DNA of 35,517 bases from a virus (IMGVR_UViG_3300043446_005016:1-35517), one strand, 5' to 3'. Positions 10,730 through 25,703 are shown, counted from the first letter of the stretch. A program made the numbers and translations. The notes: generated by a model from the sequence alone, not told the origin.

Positions 10730-10754
10730 CTAAAAAAGCCCAGAGGAGAGCGCC

Positions 10755-11426
10755 ATGTTTCAGGGAAAAGCTATCTGGAGTAGAATCAAGAAGAATTCGT
10801 CATGGGCTAAGGGGAGAGTTCTTTCCTCAGTGATAAAAGAAGAGGTTGATAAAATCATCGCTCCTTTTCGAGCGAAGGTGCGTATTATTAACCAAAAGTT
10901 TGCAAGCAAAAAAACAGAATTTATGGTCGGGGGTGAATTTGCTCCCGACGTTTACCGCAAACCCATCACCATAGACATATGTGTTTCCTCTGAAAAGGGA
11001 TATGTCTACTTCACTAAAAAAAGAAAAGATCGCTTCTTTTTTCTTATTAGTCAAACACTTCAACATGAACTGGTTCATCTCTACCAACTAAAGAATCGTG
11101 GAGATGAAAAGTTTTATACACACTACTTTAACTTCTCAAAAGGACAGTCTCGTAGTTCAATGGCGAAGCTAGAATACTTTGCTATGGTGGAAGAGATAGA
11201 TGCATATGCCCATGATCTGGCGATGGAAATTTGTTTTAACTATCCTTTTGCACAACCTCGAGATATACTTAAACACATAAATGAGTATGAGGGGCTAGAA
11301 ACTTGGAAAATTTACAAGAAATATTTCAAAAAAGCCCGGTGGTTGCACGTAAGAAATGAGTTGTTGCGTAAAACATACAGATGGCTTCCAGAAGTAGAAA
11401 ACCAATTTTTATGGTTGACAAAGTAA
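10755..11426 (+). CDS. Putative late zinc metallopeptidase
   Basis: This 223-residue protein has QHELVH at residues 103-108, a HExxH zinc-binding motif within a helix (LISQTLQHELVHLYQLKNRG). VEEIDAYAHDLA (145-156) follows at a distance suited to supply the third ligand (Glu), as in gluzincins or minigluzincins. The N-terminal third is basic; the C terminus is rich in Trp, Tyr and Lys. There is no signal peptide. GGAGAG precedes the ATG. With its own late promoter, it could process virion proteins or act on the cell wall at lysis; neither is shown by sequence alone. Confidence 0.85.
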   Translation: MFQGKAIWSRIKKNSSWAKGRVLSSVIKEEVDKIIAPFRAKVRIINQKFASKKTEFMVGGEFAPDVYRKPITIDICVSSEKGYVYFTKKRKDRFFFLISQTLQHELVHLYQLKNRGDEKFYTHYFNFSKGQSRSSMAKLEYFAMVEEIDAYAHDLAMEICFNYPFAQPRDILKHINEYEGLETWKIYKKYFKKARWLHVRNELLRKTYRWLPEVENQFLWLTK

Positions 11427-11443
11427 ACTTTCTACTTCATAAT
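11415..11443 (+). promoter_or_regulatory. Sigma70-like promoter for the SWIM-type gene
   Basis: TTGACA (11415-11420), 17 bases, CATAAT (11438-11443). The -35 box lies inside the last codons of the metallopeptidase gene. It restores early-type transcription right after the single late gene. Confidence 0.6.
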
Positions 11444-11465
11444 AGTGGTTCTTTCGGAGCCAGAA

Positions 11466-11873
11466 ATGCTAAATATCCCCAAAGTTGGTTCAACTATTAC
11501 GGTTACCACTAAGCATAGAAACGTGCGCTTGGGAGAAGATCCTTTCATCTATCGAACCTTTAGCGGTGTCGTTTTGTCACCCGACAAGTGGTTGATACCG
11601 TCAGAATTCGCTTTGGCTACGGGAAACAAAGATTTTCCCAAAGCAATCGTCAACATGTCTGCCGTGGTTGATGTTAAGTATACCTCAGGATCTGCTGGCG
11701 CGGCAGTAGATACTAACACTCGAACCTTTAAGGTTACTAGCAAGTCTACTGGGAAATCATATATTGTAACTTCCATGGGAAGTTCTATTACGTGTACATG
11801 CACTGGGTTCTCCTATCGTAGGACTTGCTCTCATTCAGCAAAAGTAGCAAGCCATGTTAAAGGAAAAAGATGA
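11466..11873 (+). CDS. SWIM-type zinc-finger protein
   Basis: This 135-residue protein starts at an ATG preceded by GGAG; an upstream in-frame GTG is rejected. The C-terminal part carries the pattern CxC-x8-CxH (C110, C112, C121, H123), the SWIM zinc finger, with the usual basic FSYRRTCSH context. SWIM domains bind DNA or proteins. The N-terminal 90 residues form a beta-rich domain (VGSTITVTTKHRNVRL, FSGVVLSPDKWL) that looks like a small barrel. Similar genes occur in cyanophages and other T4-type phages without a proven role. Confidence 0.84.
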   Translation: MLNIPKVGSTITVTTKHRNVRLGEDPFIYRTFSGVVLSPDKWLIPSEFALATGNKDFPKAIVNMSAVVDVKYTSGSAGAAVDTNTRTFKVTSKSTGKSYIVTSMGSSITCTCTGFSYRRTCSHSAKVASHVKGKR

Positions 11874-12094
11874 GATTAATAGGTCTCAGTAAGCGACAAA
11901 GAGAGCTAGCAGACATGATATGGGCTCAGCAGTCCCGAGAAGAGCTGCATATTTTCCTGGATAGCCTTGAAAACGATAGAGACAAGCGAGATTGCACTCT
12001 CCTTCTAAAACTTATGATGCTAGAGCTGATTGATGAGCAAGTGGATGAGATGCAAGAATTCCCCTTTGTAAACGACTATCTGAGGCAGTTCTGA
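11870..12094 (+). CDS. Small helical protein of unknown function
   Basis: This 74-residue, mostly helical protein begins MRLIGLSKRQRELADMIW, followed by FLDSLENDRDKRD and LMMLELIDEQVDEMQE. The ATGA start overlaps the SWIM gene stop by four bases. The start resembles other phage LSKRQ(R/K)E-LADMIW proteins. The stop codon is immediately followed by hairpin cassette B. Confidence 0.76.
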   Translation: MRLIGLSKRQRELADMIWAQQSREELHIFLDSLENDRDKRDCTLLLKLMMLELIDEQVDEMQEFPFVNDYLRQF

Positions 12095-12175
12095 TGTTGT
12101 TTTTTTGCAACACCCGTAAAAATACTGGTTGCACTTTCTACCAGAAGATGTATAATAGATAGTGTTGATTGATTG
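12095..12175 (+). repeat. Hairpin-promoter cassette, copy B (PeSL-like)
   Basis: The hairpin TGTTGT (12095-12100)/GCAACA (12107-12112) with a TTTTTT loop starts directly at the stop codon of the preceding gene. TTGCAC (12129-12134), 16 bases and TATAAT (12151-12156) follow, then GTTGATTGATTGG. A 32-base stretch is identical to copy A nearly 9.4 kb away. Confidence 0.85.
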
Positions 12176-12183
12176 GATAGACA

Positions 12184-12558
12184 ATGAATATCGCAAAAGT
12201 TTGGGAAGAGATGAGTGAACTGGAACAAGCCTCTGCTATTTGGTGGGACTTGTATAAAGATGTTCATGGGGTCCGTCCTCGAGGTGTTGATACATCTAAC
12301 TGGACACTAGAAGGGTTTAATGCCCAGATCAACGCTCTTTCTATTGCTCTGGAAGAGCAAAATGCAGAAGAGCAAAAGAACCAAGCTCTTGCTGTAGAAA
12401 GATTCGAAAATCGTATCCGTCAACATATTATGGACGGCGCAGGTGACCGTGAGACCGCGCTTCTTTGGATTAAGCGTGACAGCGGTATGGGTGATGATCT
12501 GGAATATCTTGAGTACCGATTCAATCTGCCCTTTGGCTATCTAAGCAATGTTGCATAA
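12184..12558 (+). CDS. Conserved phage protein of unknown function
   Basis: This 124-residue, acidic and largely helical protein contains IWWDLYKDVHGVRPRGVDT near its start, a Glu/Gln-rich central helix (likely coiled coil, about 55-85), and YLEYRFNLPFGYL near its end. The WWDL-KD-GVRPR block is shared by many hypothetical proteins of proteobacterial phages. It is the only gene between cassettes B and C, so it forms a self-contained unit that could move as a block. Confidence 0.82.
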   Translation: MNIAKVWEEMSELEQASAIWWDLYKDVHGVRPRGVDTSNWTLEGFNAQINALSIALEEQNAEEQKNQALAVERFENRIRQHIMDGAGDRETALLWIKRDSGMGDDLEYLEYRFNLPFGYLSNVA

Positions 12559-12628
12559 AAACAACACCCAGTTACCCCCGGTTGACAAAGTTTCTAGATC
12601 CTGTATAATTGATTGTGTTGATTGATTG
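12549..12628 (+). repeat. Hairpin-promoter cassette, copy C (diverged)
   Basis: A weaker stem, TGTTG (12549-12553)/CAACA (12562-12566), starts inside the last codons of the preceding gene. It is followed by TTGACA (12582-12587), 16 bases and TATAAT (12604-12609), a near-perfect promoter, then GTGTTGATTGATTG as in copies A and B. The hairpin has decayed but the promoter and leader are kept. Confidence 0.75.
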
Positions 12629-12639
12629 AACGGAAGAAA

Positions 12640-12882
12640 ATGAACGAATTGAAAGTTGGTAGTGTTGTGAAGTCTCTGGACTTCAATGGAATCAATGATT
12701 GCTACATGGTAGGCAAAGTTGTAGCGATCCAATCTGACGGGTCTTTCCGTGCTCGGTGTACCGCCCGGGTCTGGCAGGGTTCGGTAGACAGAAAATTCAA
12801 ACCCGACTTCTTTACCGCGCCGCTGCAGGGCGAGCATTTCATGGATTCTGCAGAATTTCCTCGCATTATCGTTCTCGCCTAA
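12640..12882 (+). CDS. Small beta-rich protein
   Basis: This 80-residue protein begins MNELKVGSVVKSLDF and continues with YMVGKVVAIQSDGSFRARC, a KOW/SH3-like barrel pattern (V-G-x-V ... V-G-K-V). It may bind nucleic acid or protein. An earlier in-frame TTG lies in the cassette C leader and is rejected; GGAAG precedes the ATG. The gene and those following it look richer in G and C than the surrounding genes. Confidence 0.72.
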   Translation: MNELKVGSVVKSLDFNGINDCYMVGKVVAIQSDGSFRARCTARVWQGSVDRKFKPDFFTAPLQGEHFMDSAEFPRIIVLA

Positions 12883-12894
12883 TCGGAGTTTATC

Positions 12895-13302
12895 ATGGCA
12901 TACGTTTCTCAAGATCTCAAAGCAAAAATCGCCCCCAAAGTCAAAGCCATTCTCGCTCGCAATGGGCTGAAAGGTACCCTGGCGGTTCGCAACCACTCGA
13001 CTCTGGTGCTGAATATCAAGTCAGGCAAGATTGATTTCATCAAGAACTTCAATGAAACTTGCCAAACTGAGTTTGGTCGGCGAGTAAGTTTTACACCTGC
13101 TACAACCTCTATTGGTGTGAACCCTTATCATTTCCGCAACCACTTTTCCGGAAAAGCAAAGCAAGCACTCGAGCAACTTCTTGCTGCTATGAATAACGGC
13201 AACCATGATAATTCCGACATTCAAACCGACTATTTTGATGTGGGTTGGTATGTAGACGTCAACATTGGAAAGTGGAACAAACCTTACGAACTTTTGAAAT
13301 AA
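12895..13302 (+). CDS. Conserved phage protein, widespread in Caudoviricetes
   Basis: This 135-residue protein begins MAYVSQDLKAKIAPKVKAIL, then GLKGTLAVRNHSTLVLNIK and SGKIDFIKNFN. Near the end it has DYFDVGWYVDVNIGKWNKPY. All three blocks are strongly conserved in phages of many hosts, which implies a real but unknown early function. CGGAG precedes the ATG by eight bases. It is co-oriented with the 12640 gene and probably shares its promoter. Confidence 0.88.
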   Translation: MAYVSQDLKAKIAPKVKAILARNGLKGTLAVRNHSTLVLNIKSGKIDFIKNFNETCQTEFGRRVSFTPATTSIGVNPYHFRNHFSGKAKQALEQLLAAMNNGNHDNSDIQTDYFDVGWYVDVNIGKWNKPYELLK

Positions 13303-13311
13303 GGGCTTGAC

Positions 13312-13404
13312 ATGAATCGAGAAATACTTTATGATGTTATTTCTGCTTTCGGAATAGTTGGGTTTCCTGTGCTTGCACTTTTGGTATCTCAACTTTTCGA
13401 TTGA
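13312..13404 (+). CDS. Tiny hydrophobic protein (30 residues), tentative
   Basis: ATG at 13312 has AGGG eight bases upstream. The product is a short polar start, then FGIVGFPVLALLVSQLF, one membrane helix. The stop overlaps the -35 box of the next promoter. It fits the gap between two supported genes, but nothing else proves it is expressed. Confidence 0.38.
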   Translation: MNREILYDVISAFGIVGFPVLALLVSQLFD

Positions 13405-13429
13405 CATTCCGTTGTTTTTCTTCTATAAT
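13401..13429 (+). promoter_or_regulatory. Consensus sigma70 promoter
   Basis: TTGACA (13401-13406), 17 bases, TATAAT (13424-13429) is a perfect consensus promoter. TATAA of the -10 can also pair with TTATA at 13445-13449, next to the start codon of the following gene. That is a weak echo of the primase arrangement at 25698. Confidence 0.8.
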
Positions 13430-13448
13430 ATGTTTTTTGTGAGGTTAT

Positions 13449-13847
13449 ATGAGCAACATTGCTAAATACAATTTTGGTGGTATTTCGAAGCGTATCGGAC
13501 AGTATAAAGTTCGAGTCGGTCAAGGTGATATGGTTACTCGCATCAAGATGATGCACAAAGAGGAACATACCGAGATCGATCTGATTGAGTTTGACCGCAA
13601 GCTAACCAAAGCACAAGTGTGTGAGGAACTGCTTAAAATCGAACGCTTTCAGAAGTTTCGAGATGTCATTGAAGCGACACTTGACAAGAAGAATGGTGTC
13701 GCTGTGCCTGCCACTCCCAAAGTGAGCAAAGCACCTGCACAAAGTAAAGTTACTGCTGGGAAGCAGAAACCAAAGGTTGTGCTTAACAAGCCCCAGAAAC
13801 AAGACGATGATCTTGTCCTGGAAGAACTGAAACAACTTGTAGCTTAA
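13449..13847 (+). CDS. Hypothetical protein with basic Pro/Ala/Lys-rich linker
   Basis: The first 80 of 132 residues look folded (AKYNFGGISKRIGQYKVRVG, TEIDLIEFDRKLTKAQVCEELL). Residues 85-118 form a low-complexity Ala/Pro/Lys/Val linker, and a short acidic helix (DDDLVLEELKQLV) ends the protein. A basic linker with an acidic tail suggests binding to nucleic acid or a protein partner. No family recognised. Its promoter is the strongest in the window. Confidence 0.78.
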   Translation: MSNIAKYNFGGISKRIGQYKVRVGQGDMVTRIKMMHKEEHTEIDLIEFDRKLTKAQVCEELLKIERFQKFRDVIEATLDKKNGVAVPATPKVSKAPAQSKVTAGKQKPKVVLNKPQKQDDDLVLEELKQLVA

Positions 13848-13860
13848 TTATGGAGGTTTT

Positions 13861-14103
13861 ATGAAACCACAAACTCAAAAGGTCCTTCGCGCTCTTCAAT
13901 CTGGTATGAATCTTACCAGCACTCAAGCTAGCCGTCGCTTCGGCGTCAAAGCGCTTCGCGCGCGCATCAGCGAACTTCGTAGCGAAGGCTATGCAGTTTA
14001 CACCAATCGTAGCGATAGGGGCACCTCTTATCGCCTTGGCACTCCCAGCCGCCAGATGGTTGCGCTGGCTTACAAAGCGGCAGGACAACGCGCTTTCCAG
14101 TAA
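13861..14103 (+). CDS. Small winged-HTH-type DNA-binding protein
   Basis: This 80-residue protein has MKPQTQKVLRALQSGM, then LTSTQASRRFGVKALRARI and SELRSEGYAVYTN: a helix-turn-helix with the recognition helix around FGVKALRARISELR and a following wing (RGTSYRLG). The family is common in phages and is thought to regulate transcription or bind DNA. TGGAGG precedes the ATG. A strong terminator follows, so it closes this early operon. Confidence 0.88.
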   Translation: MKPQTQKVLRALQSGMNLTSTQASRRFGVKALRARISELRSEGYAVYTNRSDRGTSYRLGTPSRQMVALAYKAAGQRAFQ

Positions 14104-14128
14104 GTTTTCTGCTCCTTAGGTTGGATTT

Positions 14129-14152
14129 GGGCGCTTCGGCGCCCTTTTTTTT
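14129..14152 (+). terminator. Intrinsic terminator
   Basis: GGGCGC-TTCG-GCGCCC (14129-14144) is a perfect six-pair GC stem with a stable TTCG tetraloop, followed by eight T residues. It separates the early block from the late virion block. It is the only textbook intrinsic terminator I found in the window. Confidence 0.93.
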
Positions 14153-14156
14153 ATTT

Positions 14157-14164
14157 TATAAATA
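14157..14164 (+). promoter_or_regulatory. T4-type late promoter (TATAAATA)
   Basis: An exact consensus match five bases after the T tract of the terminator, ending 23 bases before the ATG at 14188. Terminator and promoter together form a clean early/late boundary. Confidence 0.78.
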
Positions 14165-14187
14165 TTAAAAAATATATCGGGGGCAAT

Positions 14188-15195
14188 ATGGGGTTATTCA
14201 AGGAATTTCTGCAAGAAGCTACTATCAGAGCTTCAGGTTCAGCAGCAAACGACCATGCTAAAAAGTATATTACACCTTATTTGCCTAAGGGTGAAAAGCA
14301 CACTACAGGGTCGCATACATTAGCAAAAGCTGTTCATGGGCATAGTGCAGGCACTGCAGTAACTTTAATTTCTCATACTGTCGAAGGTGATAAGCATTAT
14401 GTGACAGTTTCTGCTGGAAAAGATAAATTTAAAGTTCTTGCTAATAAACTTAACAAACCTGTTACAAAGGCTAACAGAGGATTCGAACAAGAAGCAAAAT
14501 TAGCTGACCATTTAAGGAAGCATGGATTGATGGAAGGTGAAGCAGCAGGGTTCACCGCAGGAAATGATTTCCACCTCATCGATAAACGTGGGCATAAAAA
14601 GAAAAAAATTCGCGGATCAGAAGGTTTTCATGCTGAAAAACACAAACTTTCAGAAGAAAAAGGCATTCAGGGAGAACATAAATCAGATATACGCACGACA
14701 GCATTCGGGCAAATAACAATTTCGCGTCACCCAAAGACACAAAAATGGTACATTAGTGACGAAGCAAGAGCGAAAAGACCAGAATACGCTGCTGCAGTAG
14801 AAAAAGCCACTGTAACCGTCGGTGGTAAAACTAAATCTTTACTGCAACATTTAAATGATACAGAACCCCCCGGCACATCAAATAAAACAGGGTTTCATTC
14901 TGATGAAACAACACTTCACCCGGCACATGCATACATGCGAGACCATCATGTGGATATAGTGCATATTGACTCGCATGGTACATATCGAGCAGGCATGAGC
15001 GAAACAAGAGACAGGCATAAATTGGGATTACCTGTGATGCAAGGTGTTGGTAGATTTAGGGTTCGTCAAAAACAAACTTATAATAACAACTCAAGAACAG
15101 CGCAATTTAGTATTAAAAAATTAGAAAAATCAGATATCAACATTGGTACAGATGAAGGCGCTATTGAAATGAAAAAACGTTTAGGTCATCAATAG
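14188..15195 (+). CDS. Putative head-targeted PD-(D/E)XK-like nuclease
   Basis: This protein has 335 residues. The start MGLFKEFLQEA resembles the T4 capsid-targeting peptide (MKTYQEFIAEA type), with L-Q-E/A as a possible gp21-type cleavage site. The middle has the order expected for a PD-(D/E)XK fold: helix FEQEAKLADHLRKHG (99-113), D127 in GNDFHLID, GEHKSD with E163 and K165, then FGQITIS (173-179). The C-terminal part is His-rich (DHHVDIVHIDSHGTYRAG). Driven by a late promoter, it could be packaged and injected to cut host or competitor DNA. The nuclease call is by motif spacing only. Confidence 0.8.
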   Translation: MGLFKEFLQEATIRASGSAANDHAKKYITPYLPKGEKHTTGSHTLAKAVHGHSAGTAVTLISHTVEGDKHYVTVSAGKDKFKVLANKLNKPVTKANRGFEQEAKLADHLRKHGLMEGEAAGFTAGNDFHLIDKRGHKKKKIRGSEGFHAEKHKLSEEKGIQGEHKSDIRTTAFGQITISRHPKTQKWYISDEARAKRPEYAAAVEKATVTVGGKTKSLLQHLNDTEPPGTSNKTGFHSDETTLHPAHAYMRDHHVDIVHIDSHGTYRAGMSETRDRHKLGLPVMQGVGRFRVRQKQTYNNNSRTAQFSIKKLEKSDINIGTDEGAIEMKKRLGHQ

Positions 15196-15247
15196 ATTTT
15201 CATCATTCCCAACAAAGCAATTTTACACACCTTGTCAATGCCTGTCA

Positions 15248-16006
15248 ATGCAATCTATTAAAGAGAAAAAACTATTAGTCAAGTTCGCTCAGTCAATGGG
15301 TCAACCTATAGATCCTGCTATTGTAGAAGAAGTGAAAAAATATGAAGAAATGCAAACTTCAGTCAAAGAGAGTGTGCGTTCAAATATTTTAGAGGATCTT
15401 AGGGAGTTATTTGATACAGCGGTAGAAAATAAGGTTACGACACTTGAACCAGCAAAAGAAGAAGTAAAGGTAGAAGAAGTTGTTGAGATTGTTGAGAAGG
15501 TTGTTGAACCTGTAAAAGAAGAAGTAAAGCAACCCTCATTGATTGAGAGATCTGCTGTTGCAATTGAAAAAGCTGAGAAAGCAAATGCAATAAAAGAAGA
15601 TTCATATCAGCAACCTTCAGTCCCCGCCCCTACCGACCTTAAGGCAGTAAAGGAAAAAATAAAGTTTCTTGAACAATGGCTTGCTAAAATATCTTTGACT
15701 GGTCCTGGTGGTGGTGCCGGATCAATTGAAACATTAGATCGTGCAACAAAAGTAGTCAGCACAAATTATACGTTTCAAAAAAGTGACTATTATGTGGGAG
15801 TCAATGCCTCGAACCCAGTAACTATTACTTTGCCATCAACAGCAAAGGCAGGTAGTATGATTGTGGTGAAGGATGAATCGGGCAATTGTTCAAACAACAA
15901 CATAACTTTAAGTGGAAACATAGATAACGATCCGGGAGGAGCTATTCTTGCAATCGACAATGGTGCCTTACAATTCATCTATAGAAGTGGCTGGAGAATA
16001 ATATGA
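15248..16006 (+). CDS. Structural protein with coiled-coil N terminus and fibre-like C domain
   Basis: The first 120 of 252 residues are Glu/Val/Lys-rich and probably coiled coil. From residue 160 a glycine-rich hinge (GPGGGAGS) leads into a beta domain, VVSTNYTFQKSDYYVGVN ... VTITLPS ... MIVVKDESGN ... GALQFIYRSGWRII. This domain is common in phage tail-fibre and baseplate-attached proteins. No Shine-Dalgarno precedes the ATG; the TGTCAATGC start region is repeated ten bases earlier in another frame. The stop overlaps the start of the next gene, so the two products may act together. Confidence 0.82.
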   Translation: MQSIKEKKLLVKFAQSMGQPIDPAIVEEVKKYEEMQTSVKESVRSNILEDLRELFDTAVENKVTTLEPAKEEVKVEEVVEIVEKVVEPVKEEVKQPSLIERSAVAIEKAEKANAIKEDSYQQPSVPAPTDLKAVKEKIKFLEQWLAKISLTGPGGGAGSIETLDRATKVVSTNYTFQKSDYYVGVNASNPVTITLPSTAKAGSMIVVKDESGNCSNNNITLSGNIDNDPGGAILAIDNGALQFIYRSGWRII

Positions 16007-17664
16007 CATATCTTTTTGTAAATGACCAAGAAATAAAAAATGATAGTGGTAACGCCATTTCTGTTACAGGAAATGTCGCTGTTTCCCAAATTACTTCTCC
16101 TTGGGTTGTAACAGGCAATGTAAATGCAAATGTCATTGGAACAGTGAGTGTTCAACCCTATGGTGCCTCATCGACTTCTGCTTTTGGTGAACCGTACGCT
16201 ATAACAATCACTCCCGTTATTCAACTTGATTCCATTTACGGTGTTACATCAGAAGTGATTCAAACTTACACTTCGGGCGCTAATGCATCGGCGGGGGCTA
16301 ATGTTACAACAGCAATGTGGGAAGTTCAAACCGGAACTTCTGTGGGTGGTTATGGTGTACTTAGAAGTAAAAGATTTTTAAGGTATCGTCCGGGGCAAGG
16401 TGCATTAGCAAGATTCACCGCTGCATTTACTACAGGTGTTGCAAATAGCACACAAAGGGCTGGACTGTTCAATCAAGAGAACGCAATTCAAATCGGATAT
16501 AATGGAACAACCTTCGGTGTGTTACGTGCAACTGGAGGAAAGGCACATAAAACTGTTTTAACTATCAACACAGCTCCCAATGCAACACAAACTGTCACCA
16601 TTACATTAAATAATGTCACATTTAGTTTTACGATAAACTCAGGAACAACTACACAAGCTGCTGCACAAATTGTTGCAATTAATAATTTTACTGGGTGGCT
16701 AATCGACCAAGTTGACAATACAGTTGTTTTCATGGCAGACAGTTTGGGACCCAAATCAGGCACTTTTAGTTTTTCAAGCACCGGAAATGCTACAGCAACC
16801 TTTTCAACAAAACAAGTGGGAGTCGCGCAAACAGAAAATTGGACCCCCCAATACGATTGGAATATTGATACTTTGGGGGTAACAGATCCTACAACAGGTC
16901 AAAGACATACAAGAAATCCCAGTGGTATGACTTTGGATCCCACAAAGTTAAACGTTTACCAGATCAATTTTCGATGGTTGGGTGTAGGTGAAATACGCTA
17001 CGCCATTGAAGATCAAACTACTGGAAACATGGTATTCTTTCATCGAGAACATTACACTAACCAAAATTTGTTGCCTCATACTGCACAACCTTCATTTAAA
17101 ATCGGATATGTTGCCTATAGTCTAGGGAGCACAACTAATGTAAAAGTTATCGGTGCTTCTTTGATGGGGGCAATAGAAGGAACCATTTTTCAGAATGAAT
17201 TAAATCGTTCTACAAGTACAAGTAAATCAACGTTAGCTCAAAATACACTTCACCACCTTCTAACTTTAAGAAATCCCTATGTTACAAATGGGGCAGCTAA
17301 TGCTCTCAATGGTGCTTATGTATTAAACGCTAAGGAATGCATACTAAAAAACATTAGTGTTGCTACCCAAGGAAACGACCCGGGCATGATTTACATTTTT
17401 TATGAGCCCACTAGCTTTTCGGGAACACATTTATACTATAGTCAACCAAAAGACAATGAAATGATTAGTACTGAAACCGGCACTTTAGACGCAACAACAG
17501 ACACTGCAATCACTAGATTTGTGACAGCAATTAACGGACAAGCATCCTACGATCTTGCATCATTTAGAATCGCTATACCTCCGGGTTCATATATTAGTAT
17601 AGGAATACAATCAACGTCACAGATAAGTAGAGTGTCTGTTGCATTAGTTTTCTCTGAGGATTAA
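16003..17664 (+). CDS. Large fibre-type or surface structural protein
   Basis: This 553-residue protein is almost entirely beta-type, rich in Thr, Ser, Asn, Val and Gly, with very few Cys. The N terminus (NDSGNAISVTGNVAVSQI) has short repeated VTGNV/TGNVN strands like a phage fibre shaft. From about residue 60 a globular part follows (FGEPYAITITPVIQLDSIYG, YRPGQGALARFTAAF). The style matches exposed virion proteins of aquatic phages and giant-phage fibres. It is translationally coupled (ATGA) to the 15248 gene. It is a likely host-contact protein. Confidence 0.84.
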   Translation: MTYLFVNDQEIKNDSGNAISVTGNVAVSQITSPWVVTGNVNANVIGTVSVQPYGASSTSAFGEPYAITITPVIQLDSIYGVTSEVIQTYTSGANASAGANVTTAMWEVQTGTSVGGYGVLRSKRFLRYRPGQGALARFTAAFTTGVANSTQRAGLFNQENAIQIGYNGTTFGVLRATGGKAHKTVLTINTAPNATQTVTITLNNVTFSFTINSGTTTQAAAQIVAINNFTGWLIDQVDNTVVFMADSLGPKSGTFSFSSTGNATATFSTKQVGVAQTENWTPQYDWNIDTLGVTDPTTGQRHTRNPSGMTLDPTKLNVYQINFRWLGVGEIRYAIEDQTTGNMVFFHREHYTNQNLLPHTAQPSFKIGYVAYSLGSTTNVKVIGASLMGAIEGTIFQNELNRSTSTSKSTLAQNTLHHLLTLRNPYVTNGAANALNGAYVLNAKECILKNISVATQGNDPGMIYIFYEPTSFSGTHLYYSQPKDNEMISTETGTLDATTDTAITRFVTAINGQASYDLASFRIAIPPGSYISIGIQSTSQISRVSVALVFSED

Positions 17665-17670
17665 TAAATA
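17663..17670 (+). promoter_or_regulatory. T4-type late promoter variant (AATAAATA)
   Basis: One mismatch from TATAAATA and a fit to NATAAATA, overlapping the stop codon of the fibre gene and ending 16 bases before the ATG at 17687. Confidence 0.5.
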
Positions 17671-17686
17671 AAAATAAAGGGTTAAG

Positions 17687-18835
17687 ATGTTTACACTAAA
17701 GGGTTATTTACAGGAAGCAAGAACAAAGACATCTGTTGACGCAGAGCTTTTGTCACATCTTACTCACGCTAAAGATCTGCCCCATGAACTTCCTGGTCCT
17801 GGACATGAACATGGTGTAAACTTAATACATGAATTCCACAAACTTCGTATGGGTCAACCCAGTTCAGTTGTTGCAACACATAAGGTAGATGGCGGTGCAT
17901 CTGTTGTGGTTGGGCATGATGAAAAAGGACCTTTCGTATCAGATAAACATCGTCATGCTCGAGGGGTAGTTGCACGTACTCCTGAAGAAGTAGATGAACA
18001 TTTTGGTCACGCTCCTGGATATGCAGCTGATATGAAAAATGTTCTTGAACATGCTCATCATATTGTGAACAAAGGACACACTGTACAGGGAGATTTGCTT
18101 TTTACCGAGCACAGTAAAGATCAAAGAAAAGGTCAGACGATTACTGCACACGCTAATCGTTTACAGTATAAGATAAAAACTCCTGCGAAGCTAGGAATCG
18201 CTGTTCATACAGAAATCACTAACGGAATAGCACATAAACCATCTGCTAAAGCTATAGCGCATAGCCCAGAAGTATTTAAACCAAACCTTGATTTTAATCC
18301 AAAGGAACATAAGTATTCTCCTCAAGATAGAAAAATGACTGAACAACATCTTGAAGCGGCTAAAAAACTTATCAAAGATAATCCTGATACCAGTCATTTA
18401 ACTGAAGAACATCAGACACAATTTACCACTTACATGAATCGTACTACTCGCAAAGGTACAAAACCTTCCATTGAAGGGTATAAAACACACTTGCTTGAAG
18501 AGGGTGCAAAGAAAGCCGCTACTGTCAAAACTGAAGCTGCTAAAGCTACACATATCAATAAGTTCAAAGCGATGGCACAACATGTTGATGACAATAAAGG
18601 AGCTTTTGAAAATACTTTAAAAATCAATCATCACTTGTCTCAAGCAACTGAGCATGTGCTAAAAGGCATCAAACATACCGATATGGATACCGCAATCGAC
18701 AATAAACCATCTGACACAGAAGGGGTTGTTCTTCTGAAAAAAGATGCTCAGCGTCGTTTAAGACCTGTTGCAAAGTTGGTTCCTAAAGAAGTTTCTCATC
18801 AGATTCTCAACAATCCTAGATTTGCGAAGGCATAA
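17687..18835 (+). CDS. Ligase-like nucleotidyltransferase (DUF6267-like) with head-targeting start
   Basis: This 382-residue protein starts MFTLKGYLQEA, a capsid-targeting-like peptide. KVDGG at 66-70 matches the KxDG active-site lysine motif of ATP-dependent DNA/RNA ligases and capping enzymes. QGDLLF (134-139) resembles motif III, EGVVLLKK (345-352) motif IV, and the nearby AKLVPK motif V. The order and spacing fit the covalent nucleotidyltransferase superfamily, with a His/Lys-rich helical insert between about 200 and 335. I recall the same core as DUF6267 in aquatic T4-type phages. The substrate is unknown; neighbouring genes suggest a virion-associated role. Confidence 0.82.
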   Translation: MFTLKGYLQEARTKTSVDAELLSHLTHAKDLPHELPGPGHEHGVNLIHEFHKLRMGQPSSVVATHKVDGGASVVVGHDEKGPFVSDKHRHARGVVARTPEEVDEHFGHAPGYAADMKNVLEHAHHIVNKGHTVQGDLLFTEHSKDQRKGQTITAHANRLQYKIKTPAKLGIAVHTEITNGIAHKPSAKAIAHSPEVFKPNLDFNPKEHKYSPQDRKMTEQHLEAAKKLIKDNPDTSHLTEEHQTQFTTYMNRTTRKGTKPSIEGYKTHLLEEGAKKAATVKTEAAKATHINKFKAMAQHVDDNKGAFENTLKINHHLSQATEHVLKGIKHTDMDTAIDNKPSDTEGVVLLKKDAQRRLRPVAKLVPKEVSHQILNNPRFAKA

Positions 18836-18836
18836 C

Positions 18837-20003
18837 ATGGCAGAAAAAACAACGGTATTTGCCTTTGGGCGCATGAATCCCCCAACAGTGGGGCATGAGA
18901 AACTTGTCAATAAAGTTAAAGAAATTGCTAAAGAGCACGGAGCAGAACATTTAATAGTGCTTTCTCATACACAAGATAAAATAACGAAAAGAAAAAAGGT
19001 AATTAAAAATCCTTTATCTCCGCAACAAAAGCTAAAACATGCAAAGAGATTTTTTCCCAAAACAAATTTAAAACTCTCATCAGAAGAGGCGCCTACTTTT
19101 CTACAACATGCACAAGAATTACACAAATCCGGAACGTCTCATTTGGTTATGGTAGCAGGTTCAGATAGAATTGACGAATACAAAAAGAAATTAAGTCATT
19201 ATAATGGTAGAGGAGAAGGTAAACTTTTTAACTTCAAATCAATGAAAGTTGTGTCTGCCGGAGAGCGTGATCCCGATGCAGAAGGCGTTGAAGGCATGTC
19301 AGCATCTAAGATGAGAGAACATGCTAAGAATAATAACTTTGATGAGTTTAAAAAAGGTGTTCCCGCCCATGTTCCAGAAAAACATGCAAAAGAACTTTTT
19401 AATGATGTGCGTCGAGGAATGCACTTAACTGAGAGTTTTGCAAATTGGGTTAAAGATGCTAGTGTTTTAGAAGAAAATAAATATAGGACGGCATCAGGTG
19501 CGTATGAGAAGAATCCAAGAAATAAGTCGGGTTTAAGTAAAAAATATTCCGGAAACTTGTCACATTCTACACAATTAGCAAGAAAATCTCACTGGAATAA
19601 AACGAGTAAAATGGCAGATAACAACCCTGCAGCATATACACCTGCTCCTGGAGACAAAGGCACAAAAACTAAAGAATCTGTTTACACCAAGAGGTATAGA
19701 GAAAGGTTCGGAGAAGAGGCTATGAAAATTCCATATTTGTTAATGAGCAATGAACAAAAAGTCGCCCTTCAAGAGAAGAATGGTGGGGCTGAACAGATTA
19801 CTTATTTGAACACCAAGACACAAAATTTCGATATGTGCCCCAAGGCGTATGATGCATTTAAAGCCCTTATAGGAACACAAGCAGGACCTGAGATGAAGAT
19901 GATGAGAACAACAAAGGAGCTGCATTCGGCAGTGTCAGCGGGTCTTGAAGCAAAACCAGATCGCCTTCGCCATATGCAATTTAAACAATACTTAGGACTT
20001 TAA
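18837..20003 (+). CDS. Cytidylyltransferase-like (HxGH superfamily) protein with virion-type C region
   Basis: This protein has 388 residues. FAFGRMNPPTVGHEKLV (8-24) is the (H/T)xGH nucleotide-binding loop, VAGSDRIDEY (106-115) the middle strand, and GMSASKMREHA (153-163) the ISxTxxR-like motif. Together they define the nucleotidyltransferase fold of cytidylyl- and NMN adenylyl-transferases. After residue 195 comes LTES, a possible gp21-type cleavage site, then a basic low-complexity region with YTPAPGDKGTKTK and YTKRYRERFGEE as seen in other phage virion proteins. An in-frame TTG upstream is rejected; the ATG follows the previous stop by one base. It is probably coupled with the ligase-like enzyme. 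Confidence 0.88.
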   Translation: MAEKTTVFAFGRMNPPTVGHEKLVNKVKEIAKEHGAEHLIVLSHTQDKITKRKKVIKNPLSPQQKLKHAKRFFPKTNLKLSSEEAPTFLQHAQELHKSGTSHLVMVAGSDRIDEYKKKLSHYNGRGEGKLFNFKSMKVVSAGERDPDAEGVEGMSASKMREHAKNNNFDEFKKGVPAHVPEKHAKELFNDVRRGMHLTESFANWVKDASVLEENKYRTASGAYEKNPRNKSGLSKKYSGNLSHSTQLARKSHWNKTSKMADNNPAAYTPAPGDKGTKTKESVYTKRYRERFGEEAMKIPYLLMSNEQKVALQEKNGGAEQITYLNTKTQNFDMCPKAYDAFKALIGTQAGPEMKMMRTTKELHSAVSAGLEAKPDRLRHMQFKQYLGL

Positions 20004-20004
20004 A

Positions 20005-20442
20005 ATGAAAGAACAATTAGTCAATCAGCTTAAAAAGACCCTTGCGGATGTTGTAACTTTTTATCTAAAAGCTCACAACTATCATTGGAATGTAGAAGGT
20101 CCTGATTTCAGCCAATACCATGAATTGTTTGGCGAACTTTACGGAGAAGTTTATGGGTCAGTAGACAGCATTGCAGAACTCATCAGAACCCTTGATGCTT
20201 ATGCACCAGGAACACTTGCTCGTTTAAAATCTCTATCTACGATTGTAGAAGATGATGATATTCCTTCTGCCCTAGAAATGGCAAGAAGACTTTATACAGA
20301 AAATGAAAAACTAATTCTTACTTTAATTACAACTTATAACATGGCTGAAGCTGAAAACGAATTTGGTGTATCTAATCACATTCAAGATAGAATAGAAGCA
20401 CATAAAAAGCATTCATGGATGCTTAGATCAACAGGAAAGTAA
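20005..20442 (+). CDS. dps: Dps-like ferritin family protein
   Basis: This 145-residue protein has KAHNYHWNVEGPDF (22-35) and a complete Dps ferroxidase set, H27, H39, D54 and E58. The spacing (12, 15, 4) equals that of E. coli Dps H51, H63, D78 and E82. Dps proteins form 12-subunit shells that oxidise Fe(II) with H2O2 and shield DNA. The length is a little short, lacking the long Lys-rich N-terminal tail that binds DNA in E. coli. It lies within the late virion block, starting one base after the previous stop, so it is made late and may enter or protect the packaged genome. Confidence 0.93.
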   Translation: MKEQLVNQLKKTLADVVTFYLKAHNYHWNVEGPDFSQYHELFGELYGEVYGSVDSIAELIRTLDAYAPGTLARLKSLSTIVEDDDIPSALEMARRLYTENEKLILTLITTYNMAEAENEFGVSNHIQDRIEAHKKHSWMLRSTGK

Positions 20443-20443
20443 A

Positions 20444-21595
20444 ATGGATACAGTTCTTCGACAAGATCTTATTGATATAGCCCTTAGGGCGACCGATTCG
20501 TATTTGGGTGTTGAAAAACACGCTATGAAAAATGGGTTTGCCACTAATCAAGACATACACGATTTTTCAATGTACTTGTCGAAAGCCCATGATGCTTTGA
20601 CACAATTGGGTGAAATTGATAAGCATTATGGTTATATGATAAATCATGTGAACACAATGATGAAACTTGCTAACCACGATGACAGCACACTCGCTGATCT
20701 TCCCTTTGTGCATGTACCCAAAGCCGATTTTGGTGATATTGAAGAAGAAACACAATTAGATGAGATAAGTCAACAAGTAAAACAAAGTTACACACAAAAA
20801 GCAAAAGAACAAGTGCGTCAGTTGAAGCCCTTTGCTAAGAAAGGTGAATATCGAGATTTAGCGAAAAACCTTATCAGACGCCGAGAAGCTGGAATAGCTA
20901 TGGCTGAAGAGGTCGAGACGCTTGATGAAGAAGCTGAAAAAGGTTTAGCTGCCAAAGCTGCTAAATCAGGCATCTCATTGGGAACCTTGAAAAAAGTTTA
21001 TGCTCGTGGAATGGCTGCTTGGAAAACAGGTCATCGTCCTGGCACTACTCCACAACAGTGGGGCATGGCACGTGTAAATTCCTACATCACTAAAGGTAAG
21101 ACATTTCACACCGCAGATAAAGATTTACACGAAGGCACTAAAAAAAAGACAAAGCAGGATGTAAATACTGATGAGTTAGAGCGTTTAGCGAATACGTTAT
21201 CTTGGGAAGATATTGCCGACACATACGAAAAAGAAGATTATGTCACCGAGGAAGTAGAACCTTTAGATGAAAAACTATCTGCTGCTGCAAGATTAAAAAA
21301 ACAAAGAGATTTTAGAAGAACAGGTGTAAAAAGAAATATTATTAGAGGTATGAGATTGCATCGAGTCTCATCTCCTGAGAGATTAAGACAAAGATCAATT
21401 GTTGCTGCAAGAAGATTATTATCAAAGAAATTTTTAAGAGGTCGTGACAAATCTCAATTATCACCTCAAGAAAAGGATCTGCTGGAACAACGTTTAAAGC
21501 GATTACAAGAGTTGGGTGTACAAGCAACTCTGGCTCAAAGATTAATGCCAAAGATTCGTAAAATAGAACAAGCAAGATTGAAACATAAAAAGTAA
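20444..21595 (+). CDS. Modular virion protein with DUF5824-like domain and LDE linkers
   Basis: This 383-residue protein has a helical N-terminal domain (1-95), then three acidic linkers ending in LDE: TQLDE (107), EEVETLDE (162), EEVEPLDE (276). Between the last two lies TLKKVYARGMAAWKTGHRPG (181-200) and QQWGMARVNSYITKG, the DUF5824 pattern. The C-terminal 100 residues are strongly basic (RLKKQRDFRRTG, RRLLSKKFLRG). L-x-E is the cleavage rule of T4 prohead protease gp21, so the protein may be cut into several head-internal peptides. No prohead protease gene is visible in this window. Confidence 0.85.
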   Translation: MDTVLRQDLIDIALRATDSYLGVEKHAMKNGFATNQDIHDFSMYLSKAHDALTQLGEIDKHYGYMINHVNTMMKLANHDDSTLADLPFVHVPKADFGDIEEETQLDEISQQVKQSYTQKAKEQVRQLKPFAKKGEYRDLAKNLIRRREAGIAMAEEVETLDEEAEKGLAAKAAKSGISLGTLKKVYARGMAAWKTGHRPGTTPQQWGMARVNSYITKGKTFHTADKDLHEGTKKKTKQDVNTDELERLANTLSWEDIADTYEKEDYVTEEVEPLDEKLSAAARLKKQRDFRRTGVKRNIIRGMRLHRVSSPERLRQRSIVAARRLLSKKFLRGRDKSQLSPQEKDLLEQRLKRLQELGVQATLAQRLMPKIRKIEQARLKHKK

Positions 21596-21602
21596 ATAAA
21601 TA
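21595..21602 (+). promoter_or_regulatory. T4-type late promoter variant (AATAAATA)
   Basis: It lies just after the stop of the 20444 gene and ends 20 bases before the ATG at 21623. It is a NATAAATA form; the position supports it more than the sequence alone. Confidence 0.48.
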
Positions 21603-21622
21603 ATGTAATAACCGAGGATCCT

Positions 21623-22546
21623 ATGAAAACTTTCAAACAATTCCAAGAAGAATTTTGCTGTGAAGAGTGTGATGACTCCCATTATGGCATTGTTGAGGAA
21701 GAATTTGAAGTTACAGGGAATGAACAATATGAGGATTGGGGTGAGCTTGATGAGGGTGAAGGTATTGTAACTCCTAGAAAAACAAGAGCATCGTTTTTAC
21801 CTCCTGCTCCGGGAACTTATGCGGCTGATTTAGCTGCAGGAAAATACGCTAAGTATGGCTTTACCAAATCAGGTAAAGAAACTGCTGCTGCAAAGCGTGA
21901 AAAAATAAGTAAGCAAAGTGTGGCAGAAGCCCGAGTTACCCAACTGCCAACTCAAGGTGCAGATTACAGTAAATACGACACAGACCATTTGAAAATGCTA
22001 CTGCGTCCAGGCATCCTACATCGCAATGAAGCAAGATTCAAAGCACTAATTCGTAAAGAATTACAAAAGCGTGAACAGCAAAGTCAGCAAAGTGTGGCGG
22101 AAGGTTCTCTACATGAAATGGATAATCGCACTCAAAGCAGTGATCGTAGAGAACAGCGTTACTATAGTTCAGAAGAAAAAGCGAAGCGTGAGAAAGAACA
22201 ACAGAAAAGATTAAAAAATCTAAGCCCTGAAATGCGTAAAAAATTACGTTTACCTGAACCTAAAGAAGAAGTAACAGAAGAAGCAGATAAATCTCGCGTT
22301 AAATTAGGCAAACCCTTTTTAACTCCTGGTGGTCCTAAGAAACGTGCTGTTTACGTTAAGAATGATAGAGGTAACGTTGTCAAAGTAAGTTTTGGTGATC
22401 CCAATCTTGAAATCAAGCGGGACAATCCCGAACGTAGAAAGAATTTTAGAGCAAGACACAATTGTGACCAACCTGGTCCTCGCTGGAAAGCTAAATATTG
22501 GTCCTGCAAGTACTGGTCAAAAACCCCCGTAAGTAAACTAGACTAA
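21623..22546 (+). CDS. Modular virion protein with capsid-targeting-like start
   Basis: This 307-residue protein starts MKTFKQFQEEF, very close to the T4 capsid-targeting consensus. It then has CCEECDD (possible metal site), GELDEGEG, and two modules ended by SVAEA (about 99-103) and SVAEG (about 155). The C-terminal 80 residues, KLGKPFLTPGGPKKRAVYVK to SFGDPNLEIKRDNPERRKNF and ARHNCDQPGPRWKAKYWSC, form a conserved basic domain found in many T4-type head proteins. The repeated V-A-E and L-D-E ends could be protease sites. Probably head-internal; the detailed role is unknown. Confidence 0.85.
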   Translation: MKTFKQFQEEFCCEECDDSHYGIVEEEFEVTGNEQYEDWGELDEGEGIVTPRKTRASFLPPAPGTYAADLAAGKYAKYGFTKSGKETAAAKREKISKQSVAEARVTQLPTQGADYSKYDTDHLKMLLRPGILHRNEARFKALIRKELQKREQQSQQSVAEGSLHEMDNRTQSSDRREQRYYSSEEKAKREKEQQKRLKNLSPEMRKKLRLPEPKEEVTEEADKSRVKLGKPFLTPGGPKKRAVYVKNDRGNVVKVSFGDPNLEIKRDNPERRKNFRARHNCDQPGPRWKAKYWSCKYWSKTPVSKLD

Positions 22547-22556
22547 GAGAGAAAAA

Positions 22557-23672
22557 ATGAGCAGACAATTATTCGAAGAGGCTAGAAAGGTCCTACAAGC
22601 TGAAGCAGCCGTTAAACTTGATCCGGTTGGACAAGAAGATAAAGACATTGACAATGATGGCGATTCAGATAGGACAGATTCTTATTTGAAAAAGCGTCGG
22701 GGTGCCATCAGTGCTGCTATCGCTAAATCAAAAAATGAAAGCAAAGAGCTTTCACAAGAAGATGCACAGCGCATTTCAGATATTCTCAAAGGTGTGGCGG
22801 AAGAAACAGAACAAGTCGATGAGATGAAAGGACAGGCAACTGTTCCCCCCAAAGGTCCCAAACCCGGAGAAGTTCCTGCCTACATGCGTAAGGGAAATGC
22901 TCGCCAAAAGTTTCCTATTGACTTAAAAGATCTGAAAAAGAATGAAGAAGTTGAACAGATTGATGAAGTTGGAGACACCCCAGCAGGTAAAGCTGCATTA
23001 AGAGCAGTGCAAGATCGAGCCTATGGAAAAATGGACGCTTGGAGCAAAAATCCCAAAAGTGGATATTCATCAACACCTAAGGAAGTTAAAAAGGCAACCA
23101 GTACTGCTGTTAGAGCAGGAAACAGATTGCAGGGATTTGGCCCTGACAAGTTAAATGCAAACACAGTAATGGCCCGTGATGCTCTGCGTAAGAAATTAGC
23201 CTCACAAGGAATTGGTGAAGAAGCTGAAGGAGTCGACAATGATCCTGTCTCAGAAATCATAGAAGCAAGGGATGCATTCACCATTGAACTTCCAGAAACT
23301 TTAACGTATCAGCATTATCTTAAAGCTGCTATGCAAGCAGAAGGCATTGAGTCATTAAGAGAACTAGATGACGAAATGCTTATGCCTTTCCTCGCAGTTG
23401 TTGAGGAATTGTTTATGGAAGGTGAGGAAGAATTTGTAATTTTAGAATTGTCATACAGTGAAATGCAAGATAAGATTTATATGCACCAGAGACAAGGAAA
23501 TAAAGTTACTGGTGTTGAGCGTAAGACAATGAATGGTCAACCCTACGCTGCTTACGTTGTGACTGACAAAAATGGAATGCGCCGTAAATACATATATCAG
23601 GGAAATGTGAGGCGTGTTCAAAATTTAGGTCAAACTACAAAACCTAACGAAACAAATCCATTAGAAGATTAA
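22557..23672 (+). CDS. Modular virion protein with EF-hand-like loop
   Basis: This 371-residue protein has an N-terminal SRQLFEEARKVLQAEAA and a Ca-binding type loop, DIDNDGDSDRTD (30-41), followed by YLKKRRGAISAAI. Linkers EQVDE (85-89) and EEVEQIDE (130-137) separate the next modules. A helical domain (VQDRAYGKMDAWSKNP onward) leads to an acidic region, and the C terminus holds a small beta domain (KTMNGQPYAAYVV, RRKYIYQGNVRRV). The EF-like loop and acidic linkers are shared with head proteins of aquatic T4-type phages. It is the next gene in the same late operon. Confidence 0.84.
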   Translation: MSRQLFEEARKVLQAEAAVKLDPVGQEDKDIDNDGDSDRTDSYLKKRRGAISAAIAKSKNESKELSQEDAQRISDILKGVAEETEQVDEMKGQATVPPKGPKPGEVPAYMRKGNARQKFPIDLKDLKKNEEVEQIDEVGDTPAGKAALRAVQDRAYGKMDAWSKNPKSGYSSTPKEVKKATSTAVRAGNRLQGFGPDKLNANTVMARDALRKKLASQGIGEEAEGVDNDPVSEIIEARDAFTIELPETLTYQHYLKAAMQAEGIESLRELDDEMLMPFLAVVEELFMEGEEEFVILELSYSEMQDKIYMHQRQGNKVTGVERKTMNGQPYAAYVVTDKNGMRRKYIYQGNVRRVQNLGQTTKPNETNPLED

Positions 23673-23683
23673 GGAGACATTAA

Positions 23684-24259
23684 ATGTCATCTTGGGGAAA
23701 ACTAGATAGCAAACAGTTAACTGGTAATGTTACAGTAACTTCTGGAAGCAAAGCGGTATCGAATGCATCAGGTAATGCAACACTTTTTTTAAGTGAAGTT
23801 AAACCCGGTGACTACTTTGTCTTTGGTCCAGTACAAGGTAACTCAACAGTTAAGTATTACGTTGCCAACGTTCTTTCAAATGTTTCATTGAATTTGACCA
23901 CCAATTACAGTGGTTCTACTTCAAGCGGAAAAGCAAACGTTCAACAGGGTCCAAAGTATGTTAATGTGGTTGAAAACGTTCGCGGGAATGCATATACCAT
24001 TCAGAAAATTTATGGTATTGATTCTAATGAAGCAGGCAATACCATGAATAAGGCAAACAACATCAATCAACCCGGTTGGGTTCATCAGATTGTTTGGACA
24101 GACGGATTCGGCACTCGCCGCGTTAAGACTGAAACATTGGTTGCAATGTCGAAGAACTTTAACCGTGACAATACCGCCAACGCATCCTTGTCACCCACAA
24201 CAGGCAATCTGCAAATCGACGCTGATGATGATGCTGCAATAAGAGACAATAATGCCTAA
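23684..24259 (+). CDS. Structural protein, probable neck/tail or decoration component
   Basis: The first 85 of 191 residues are beta repeats (LTGNVTVTSGSKAVSN, VKPGDYFVFGPV). Next comes a compact domain: YGIDSNEAGNTMNKANN, GWVHQIVWTDGFGTRRVKTE and LVAMSKNF. The tail has DADDDAAIRDNNA. AAGGAG precedes the ATG. Similar proteins lie beside tail and neck genes of aquatic T4-type phages; the exact place in the virion cannot be told from sequence. Confidence 0.82.
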   Translation: MSSWGKLDSKQLTGNVTVTSGSKAVSNASGNATLFLSEVKPGDYFVFGPVQGNSTVKYYVANVLSNVSLNLTTNYSGSTSSGKANVQQGPKYVNVVENVRGNAYTIQKIYGIDSNEAGNTMNKANNINQPGWVHQIVWTDGFGTRRVKTETLVAMSKNFNRDNTANASLSPTTGNLQIDADDDAAIRDNNA

Positions 24260-24521: not shown

Positions 24522-24522
24522 A

Positions 24523-24882
24523 ATGATATTTGAGTTGAATGAAGATAACTTTTTAATGTATGCCATAAAGAATTACGATAATCCGGCGTGTAAAGGATTG
24601 TCAGAATTCAATGAGGACATAAAAAGGTTTAAGTATTTAAAGCGCCTGTTTGGTAGATACCACGCAGGTAAAGGTTTAAAAGAAAGATTAATACTAAATC
24701 ATCTTATTGTAATTAGCAACTTGTTTGGTTCTGAAGCATCTGTTAAAATGTTGTTTTATAAAGTAGACAAAAAACATTGGTCAGCTCTAAAAACATTTTT
24801 GTTATTTCTAAACTTAATGCCCGAGAGTGAGTCAACTATACCAATAGATATGAACATAGCAGAAACTCTAAGAAGAATCTAA
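24523..24882 (+). CDS. Conserved T4-type protein (DUF7207-like)
   Basis: This 119-residue protein begins MIFELNEDNFLMYAIKNYDN, then FNEDIKRFKYLKRLFGRY and ERLILNHLIVISNLFG, ending in LLFLNLMPESE. This all-helical protein is highly conserved in T4-type phages of aquatic bacteria, next to structural genes; I recall the domain as DUF7207. No function is known. It starts one base after the previous stop, and its own stop overlaps the next ATG. Confidence 0.83.
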   Translation: MIFELNEDNFLMYAIKNYDNPACKGLSEFNEDIKRFKYLKRLFGRYHAGKGLKERLILNHLIVISNLFGSEASVKMLFYKVDKKHWSALKTFLLFLNLMPESESTIPIDMNIAETLRRI

Positions 24883-25433
24883 TGCCAAACCGCTTTATCG
24901 ACGCTGCAATTGTTTATCGCATTCTACGAATGCTAGTTACCCCCTTTGACAAAACAGATGCATATCGTTTAGGCATCATCGATGCAAAGGGTAAAATTTT
25001 AAAAAAGTCAAGTCAATTAAATACCGTTGAACAAAAAAATGCCTATACGCTTCTTCATCGTCTGGTGTTTCGTTTAAAACGAATCATTGAAAAGGTGCCA
25101 ATTGACAACAAAAAATTTCTTTCTTTTGCAGCGGCTTTAGCTTTGATACGCGAAAATTATGAAAAAGGAACAGAGCCGATTGAATTGGAAAGAATGTTTC
25201 TTGAGTCGTTAAAGCAACCCCATGATACGACTTTGGTTGAGCATTTTCTATCAGATAAATATATGAAATCTTTCAAGCAGTTTATGGAAGAAGATGGTGG
25301 AGTAGCTGCCAATAACGCTGCGGTGACGGGTGGTATAGCGGGTCTTCCTCCTGATGAACCTCCGGTACCGAAGATGAATAAACTTAACATGTTTAGAAGG
25401 AAGAGAAAAAATGAGCTTATGGGCCAATCTTAA
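24882..25433 (+). CDS. Conserved T4-type head-assembly candidate
   Basis: This 183-residue protein has a helical N-terminal domain (NRFIDAAIVYRILRMLVTPF, TDAYRLGIIDAKGK, AYTLLHRLVFRLKRIIEK) conserved in T4-type phages. From residue about 127 the sequence MKSFKQFMEED matches the capsid-targeting pattern but in the C-terminal part. It is followed by GGVAANNAAVTGGIAGLPP and PPVPK, a tail motif seen in many related phages. The domain order suggests a core or scaffold-associated role, but that is inference. Confidence 0.82.
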   Translation: MPNRFIDAAIVYRILRMLVTPFDKTDAYRLGIIDAKGKILKKSSQLNTVEQKNAYTLLHRLVFRLKRIIEKVPIDNKKFLSFAAALALIRENYEKGTEPIELERMFLESLKQPHDTTLVEHFLSDKYMKSFKQFMEEDGGVAANNAAVTGGIAGLPPDEPPVPKMNKLNMFRRKRKNELMGQS

Positions 25434-25674: not shown

Positions 25675-25703
25675 TTGACAATCTGATTGTTATGTACTAT
25701 GAT
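25675..25703 (+). promoter_or_regulatory. Sigma70 promoter of the primase operon
   Basis: TTGACA (25675-25680), 17 bases, TATGAT (25698-25703). Transcription would start at about 25710, inside the loop of the hairpin listed next, so transcripts from here lack the 5' arm of that hairpin. Confidence 0.78.

Follow-up and report, generated by a model that had tools for sequence, protein, structure and literature searches.

Leaders of the T4 capsid-targeting type mark a likely virion-cargo cassette in a fragment of a T4-like phage

Introduction

Bacteriophage T4 injects its internal proteins, which block restriction by the host (PMC12373910). In the T4 capsid-targeting sequence (CTS), residues 4 and 7 serve targeting and residues 8 and 10 serve processing (PMC9026906). 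The internal proteins IPI, IPII and IPIII are encoded by late genes, and each begins with a ten-residue leader (hydrophobic residues at positions 4 and 7, L or I at position 8, E at position 10, a small residue at position 11) that is placed as a module on unrelated mature proteins. T4 Alt, an ADP-ribosyltransferase, is a packaged enzyme that acts on the host at entry. SPN3US and phiKZ-type phages, which have a prohead protease, deliver head-packaged ejection proteins to the cell. Virion proteins of the cytidylyltransferase/NMNAT family are known from three further phages. The cytidylyltransferase T4-GC190 was found by mass spectrometry (MS) in the S-SM1 virion (PMC3037559), NMNAT SSCSM1_91 was found by MS in the S-SCSM1 virion (PMC9602691), and a member of the family was likewise found in S-CREM2.

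We analysed a virus record of 35,517 nucleotides (IMGVR_UViG_3300043446_005016:1-35517; the whole stretch is termed the window), in which two open reading frames (ORFs), 14188 and 17687, named by their first nucleotide, begin with leaders of the T4 type. The block that contains them is likely a cassette for virion cargo that a T4-like phage transcribes late, in which the two products would be CTS-tagged, packaged and delivered with the DNA. A preliminary description of the same DNA had proposed that a nuclease-like, a ligase-like, a cytidylyltransferase-like and a Dps protein encoded in one late block all travel in the head, as T4 Alt and the internal proteins do. The locus resembles that of IPI, IPII and IPIII in leader, predicted late expression and modularity. 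It differs in its cargo, which is a conserved enzyme set (nuclease-like, ligase-type) whereas that of T4 consists of small restriction inhibitors, and in the position of its genes between gp41 and gp61. The likeness to Alt lies in a packaged enzyme that would act on the host at entry, although the activities differ; the SPN3US/phiKZ-type system is described as carrying a much greater mass of cargo (PMC7411985).

Results

The starts MGLFKEFLQEA of ORF 14188 and MFTLKGYLQEA of ORF 17687, in which a capsid-targeting-like character had been noticed earlier, were real. Both aligned position for position with the T4 IPII/IPIII propeptide, MKTYQEFIAE followed by A, and the residues given above for positions 4, 7, 8, 10 and 11 were present in both; ORF 17687 had L at position 4 and Y at position 7. 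Leader comparisons were based on about 100 related loci gathered by searches. The leader was kept by nearly all homologues of the nuclease-like ORF 14188 and by many homologues of ORF 17687, which belongs to family DUF6267, even though the sequence around it varied. Among 13 diverse homologues of ORF 14188, F4 was invariant and E10 was near-invariant. Some DUF6267 homologues lacked the leader and began directly at the domain, as would be expected if the leader is a detachable module. Besides the nuclease and DUF6267 families, it opened otherwise unrelated proteins in the related loci, namely cytidylyltransferases, HAD-like phosphatases, kinases (among them an adenylate kinase) and proteins of unknown function.

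Individual cases were also recorded. L066:1244-1828 encodes an adenylate kinase that starts with MKGFRDFIFEQ, a capsid-targeting-like leader. At L014:9477-10100, L028:5272-5889, L077:8484-9089 and L097:6860-7468, near DUF6267, the leader was present on phosphatase-like proteins of the HAD type (FDIDDTLFHT).

Of the 1004 non-redundant ORF starts examined across the related loci, 72 had the leader pattern, compared with 3 of 4866 internal methionines, which indicates that the resemblance is more than chance. When the two query families were left out, about 28-32 of the 1004 starts still had it; with UvsX also left out the count was about 28 (p < 1e-18), and this and the other leader-frequency p-values overstate the evidence because ORFs that are related cannot count as independent observations.

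The whole genomes of T4, S-SM1, S-SCSM1 and S-CREM2 were scanned with a DNA pattern representing the leader. The T4 matches were gp61.1 and two genes starting MKTYQEFIAE, which we take, from their sequence, to be the IPII and IPIII propeptides. The single S-SM1 match was SSM1_190, the T4-GC190 cytidylyltransferase. In S-SCSM1 the pattern matched SSCSM1_91, the NMNAT annotated as a virion protein; a second gene-start match, SSCSM1_30, had no virion-protein annotation, and there were two further pattern matches. Three of the four S-CREM2 matches were gene starts, all three MS-detected; the fourth lay inside nrdA and was judged to be chance. The cytidylyltransferases/NMNATs of S-SM1, S-SCSM1 and S-CREM2 that were detected in virions by MS all had the leader. 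Among the annotated genes of the first 150 kb of S-CREM2, MS detected 5 of 6 leader ORFs versus 21 of 176 other non-structural ORFs (p = 2e-4), a small sample in which two of the five detected proteins need the regular expression to be relaxed after their starts had been seen. With the expression fixed beforehand, 3 of 4 leader ORFs were detected (p = 0.01).

These data bear on the possibility that the N-terminal resemblance is a chance product or an unrelated amphipathic start, uninformative on packaging. The motif is very short, a loose regular expression matched UvsX starts (judged to be chance), and the DNA pattern hit the nrdA site. The difference between ORF starts and internal methionines argues against this explanation, as does the fact that the whole-genome matches recover internal proteins of T4 together with virion proteins detected by MS; it was already disfavoured and is highly improbable. 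A further observation concerned the S-CREM2 Cas9-like virion protein (L109:7704-10313) and S-CRM01 g128 (L108:5702-6253), whose beginnings are alike and include, some 16 residues from the N-terminus, a leader-like segment (LRFASFMAEA and LSLDSFIKEA, respectively).

The leader of ORF 17687 precedes a predicted catalytic domain. The AlphaFold model (predicted local distance difference test score, pLDDT, 89.9) showed a helix at residues 4-12 and a low-confidence linker at 10-22, both before or outside the domain. In a fold search of the PDB the top matches were almost all RNA/DNA ligases, each of them weak (best E 0.07), and annotated viral RNA ligases were among the matches in a viral structure library; a PDB sequence profile search with DUF6267 did not find a ligase. 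K66xDG, QGD134-136, EGxV345-348 and K363 were invariant in 59-60 of 60 aligned DUF6267 sequences. ATP-dependent RNA/DNA ligases such as T4 Rnl1 and archaeal RNA ligase share the KxDG, QGD, EGxV and K motifs of the predicted nucleotidyltransferase core; DUF6267 differs from them in a long helical insertion from QGD to EGxV, and identity is about 8-12 percent. The fold and the invariant motifs bear out the earlier label "ligase-like", and we conclude that ORF 17687 encodes a putative nucleotidyltransferase of the ligase type into which a helical segment is inserted. Fusions of DUF6267 to a cytidylyltransferase, present in L022, L031, L032 and S-PM2, link the two functions.

In ORF 14188, residues E102, D127, E163, K165 and Q175, typical of PD-(D/E)XK nucleases, were invariant in 13 of 13 homologues. 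A PDB sequence profile search gave no match to this ORF, and an AF2/AlphaFold model from six sequences was unusable (pLDDT 55.7). The description "nuclease-like" relies on the invariant E...D...ExK...Q signature, and the PD-(D/E)XK assignment is putative. Other proteins, with a TD...S-x-K pattern, occupied the nuclease position in HTVC008M, Melnitz and S-SM1. Kinship of the HTVC008M and Melnitz proteins to ORF 14188 was considered and rejected (21 percent, spurious columns); we treat them as another type of nuclease at that position.

Proteins with the leader might instead be prohead-core or head-maturation factors that act in the head during assembly and not in the next cell. The T4 CTS binds the prohead core, which also takes up the core proteins gp22, gp67 and gp68 (PMC9026906); structural proteins are encoded between ORFs 14188 and 17687. 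We consider this explanation rather unlikely in view of the enzymatic domains with invariant catalytic motifs, the occurrence of the leader on many unrelated enzymes whose role in assembly is not evident, and the injection of the T4 internal proteins that bear the CTS tag (PMC12373910).

The left border of the block was a terminator, the strongest terminator-like site within 9000-28500, followed by the late promoter octamer TATAAATA. The octamer was not more frequent in the window than expected by chance (2 observed versus 2.19 expected), and therefore only its placement is informative. It lay 31 nt before ATG 14188, and in 14 of 17 related loci (a set that includes near-duplicates) the nuclease gene was preceded at a distance of 30-50 nt by the looser NATAAATA box, often directly behind a terminator. 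This placement supports the late block of the preliminary description, and virion structural genes were present inside it. When leader and non-leader genes were compared, the difference was significant for NATAAATA (p = 0.0009) and not significant for strict TATAAATA (p = 0.16). The sole other TATAAATA of the window, at 10722-10729, was 33 nt upstream of ORF 10755, whose HELVH motif points to a possible metallopeptidase. The early genes shortly before the block contained two promoters that fit the sigma-70 consensus perfectly (12582-12609 and 13401-13429).

A late promoter would also suit enzymes that act late in the producing cell, in genome maturation or in processing of recombination intermediates, and whose presence in virions is incidental. 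DNA maturation could well employ a nuclease and a ligase, and carry-over in CsCl preparations is possible according to the S-SCSM1 authors (PMC9602691). However, carry-over explains neither the conserved T4-type leader nor the preferential MS detection of leader-bearing ORFs, and we regard it as quite improbable.

Gene content and order identify the 35.5 kb record as part of the genome of a T4-like myovirus of the Kyanoviridae type. Translations showed a B-family DNA polymerase, a UvsX-like protein, a gp41-type helicase and a gp61-type primase, and ribonucleotide reductase was identified via PHROGs. The late block (14157-25674) was positioned between the gp41 helicase and the gp61 primase. A comparable gene run from helicase to primase, followed by ribonucleotide reductase, was found in the Pelagibacter phage HTVC008M and the Methylophilales phage Melnitz, and the arrangement in cyanophages S-SM1 and S-CRM01 was alike. 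A nuclease-like gene adjoined DUF6267 between gp41 and gp61 in HTVC008M, Melnitz and S-SM1 as well; what seems to be conserved in this interval is the pairing of DUF6267 with a nuclease-like protein. Megablast against phage records did not find a close relative. Five tRNA genes (Arg, Trp, Leu, Met, Cys) were located at 1786-1937, 5321-5488 and 33538-33615; ORF 33552 overlaps tRNA-Cys, and its start is probably spurious.

The features of the block are listed in Table 1. The four ORFs of the preliminary description proved to be real, and gaps of exactly one base (18836, 20004 and 20443) separate the ORFs from 17687 through 20444. Pfam and PHROGs agreed with the labels "Dps" and "cytidylyltransferase-like".

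Table 1. Annotated features at the borders of and within the late block (positions in the window)
Feature	Position	Strand	Basis or remark
Intrinsic terminator, end of preceding early genes	14129..14144	+	6 G-C pairs, T8 tail
T4-type late promoter TATAAATA	14157..14164	+	31 nt upstream of ATG 14188, just past terminator
CTS-tagged nuclease-like protein, 335 aa	14188..15195	+	PD-(D/E)XK-type signature E102, D127, E163-x-K165, Q175
Capsid-targeting leader MGLFKEFLQE	14188..14217	+	Register-exact to T4 CTS; predicted cleavage before A11
Tail-fibre-like virion protein	15248..16006	+	Weak PHROG tail matches, C-terminal half
Virion structural protein (phrog_1645, head and packaging)	16003..17664	+	E 2e-19
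DUF6267, putative ligase-type covalent nucleotidyltransferase	17687..18835	+	PF19782 E 7e-31; motifs; fold searches
Capsid-targeting leader MFTLKGYLQE	17687..17716	+	Register-exact to T4 CTS; predicted cleavage before A11
Cytidylyltransferase/NMNAT-like protein	18837..20003	+	phrog_3041 E 3e-73, PF01467
Dps-family ferritin-like protein	20005..20442	+	PF00210 E 1e-22; PDB Dps 8ff9 E 3e-27
DUF5824-containing protein	20444..21595	+	Matches the C-terminal region of longer cytidylyltransferase proteins from phages
Late protein, degenerate leader MKTFKQFQEE	21623..22546	+	Start sequence
Late protein, second leader-like segment (MKSFKQFMEED...) at C-terminus	24882..25433	+	Resembles T4 gp61.1
Sigma-70-type promoter TTGACA-17-TATGAT	25675..25703	+	11/12 matches; precedes gp61 primase, right border of block

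ORF 18837 belongs to the family of the virion NMNAT/cytidylyltransferases of S-SM1, S-SCSM1 and S-CREM2, and the S-SM1 and S-CREM2 genes share its region before gp61. Those proteins bear the leader, whereas ORF 18837 does not (start MAEKTTVFAFGR). Two LxE sites inside it, LTESF and VLEEN, were dropped as cleavage sites; in a motif so short, chance matches are expected. The leader was also absent from the start of ORF 20005 (MKEQLVNQL). At the position of the Dps ferroxidase acidic ligand, four residues past the second His, this ORF has Gly (HELFGELY) instead of the E of two aligned PDB relatives, and the Gly is kept in the close relatives of L003-L006. ORF 20005 is accordingly classed, from its sequence, as a Dps-family protein with an altered ferroxidase site and not as an established ferroxidase.

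Genes at the position of ORF 21623 in relatives begin MSLTFKEFVTE or MPLTFKDYLQE. The C-terminus of ORF 24882, MKSFKQFMEEDGGVAANNAAVTGG, resembles T4 gp61.1 and an HTVC008M protein; the leader-like segment lies inside the ORF and has no Met in L003, which suggests a fusion. T4 gp61.1 (54 aa; L126:3467-3631, corresponding to T4 18966-19130, minus strand) starts with MKTFKEFIKE followed by D, and its gene lies between gp41 and gp61, the interval of the leader-tagged cassette in related phages. T4 gp61.1 may be an unrecognised packaged protein of T4.

Discussion

Packaging of the ORF 14188 and ORF 17687 products is well supported by leaders in exact T4 register, their conservation and the agreement with virion MS of relatives, and the two enzymes probably enter the next host together with the phage. 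The proposal of the preliminary description fared less well for the other two proteins. Packaging of the cytidylyltransferase is suggested by homology: its homologues occur repeatedly in virions and bear the leader there, although ORF 18837 itself does not. Packaging of Dps was not supported; it has no leader, no virion evidence was found for it, and position had been the only argument. The comparison with T4 is exact for IPII and IPIII at the leader, and the interpretation as a whole is partly supported.

Several points, in addition to the small S-CREM2 sample and the weak fold matches mentioned above, weigh against this reading of the cassette. The DUF6267 starts of S-SM1 and S-CRM01 have no leader. 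Proteins of the nuclease and DUF6267 families were absent from the published virion MS tables examined. The virion MS data come from other phages, and the capsid genes and gp21 are located outside the 35.5 kb fragment.

By analogy with T4, the ten-residue leader would dock the protein on the prohead core, a gp21-type prohead protease would cut after L-Q-E, and the mature enzyme would be retained in the head and enter the cell together with the DNA, so that injection and early action may be expected in this phage as well. The predicted cargo comprises the nuclease-like protein and the ligase-type covalent nucleotidyltransferase, with the cytidylyltransferase/NMNAT-like enzyme encoded directly downstream. 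Its most likely role would be to process or mend the ends of nucleic acids as soon as the phage enters, whether these arise from damage in the host, are DNA ends, or belong to RNA that a host defence has cut; it may thus act against host defence, and the NMNAT-like enzyme may support NAD+.

A link of the T4 CTS to these marine phage enzymes was not found in the open-access literature searched, and the passages covered of the S-SM1, S-SCSM1 and S-CREM2 virion papers do not connect the enzymes with the T4 CTS. Within the literature searched, this variant of the T4 internal-protein system has apparently gone unrecognised in these phages.

We tentatively raise the possibility that in aquatic T4-like phages the CTS leader is a general cargo tag for an end-healing and end-sealing kit (nuclease, HAD phosphatase, P-loop kinase and ligase) and for NMNAT-like enzymes, serving repair or counter-defence at entry, and that the leader makes virion cargo readable from sequence alone. 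If so, the ten-residue T4 rule would predict which proteins are carried into cells by cyanophages, pelagiphages and their relatives. Unexplained "non-structural" proteins of virion proteomes would become interpretable, and a testable list of injected enzymes would be obtained, including a ligase-type enzyme hitherto known only as a domain of unknown function (DUF6267).

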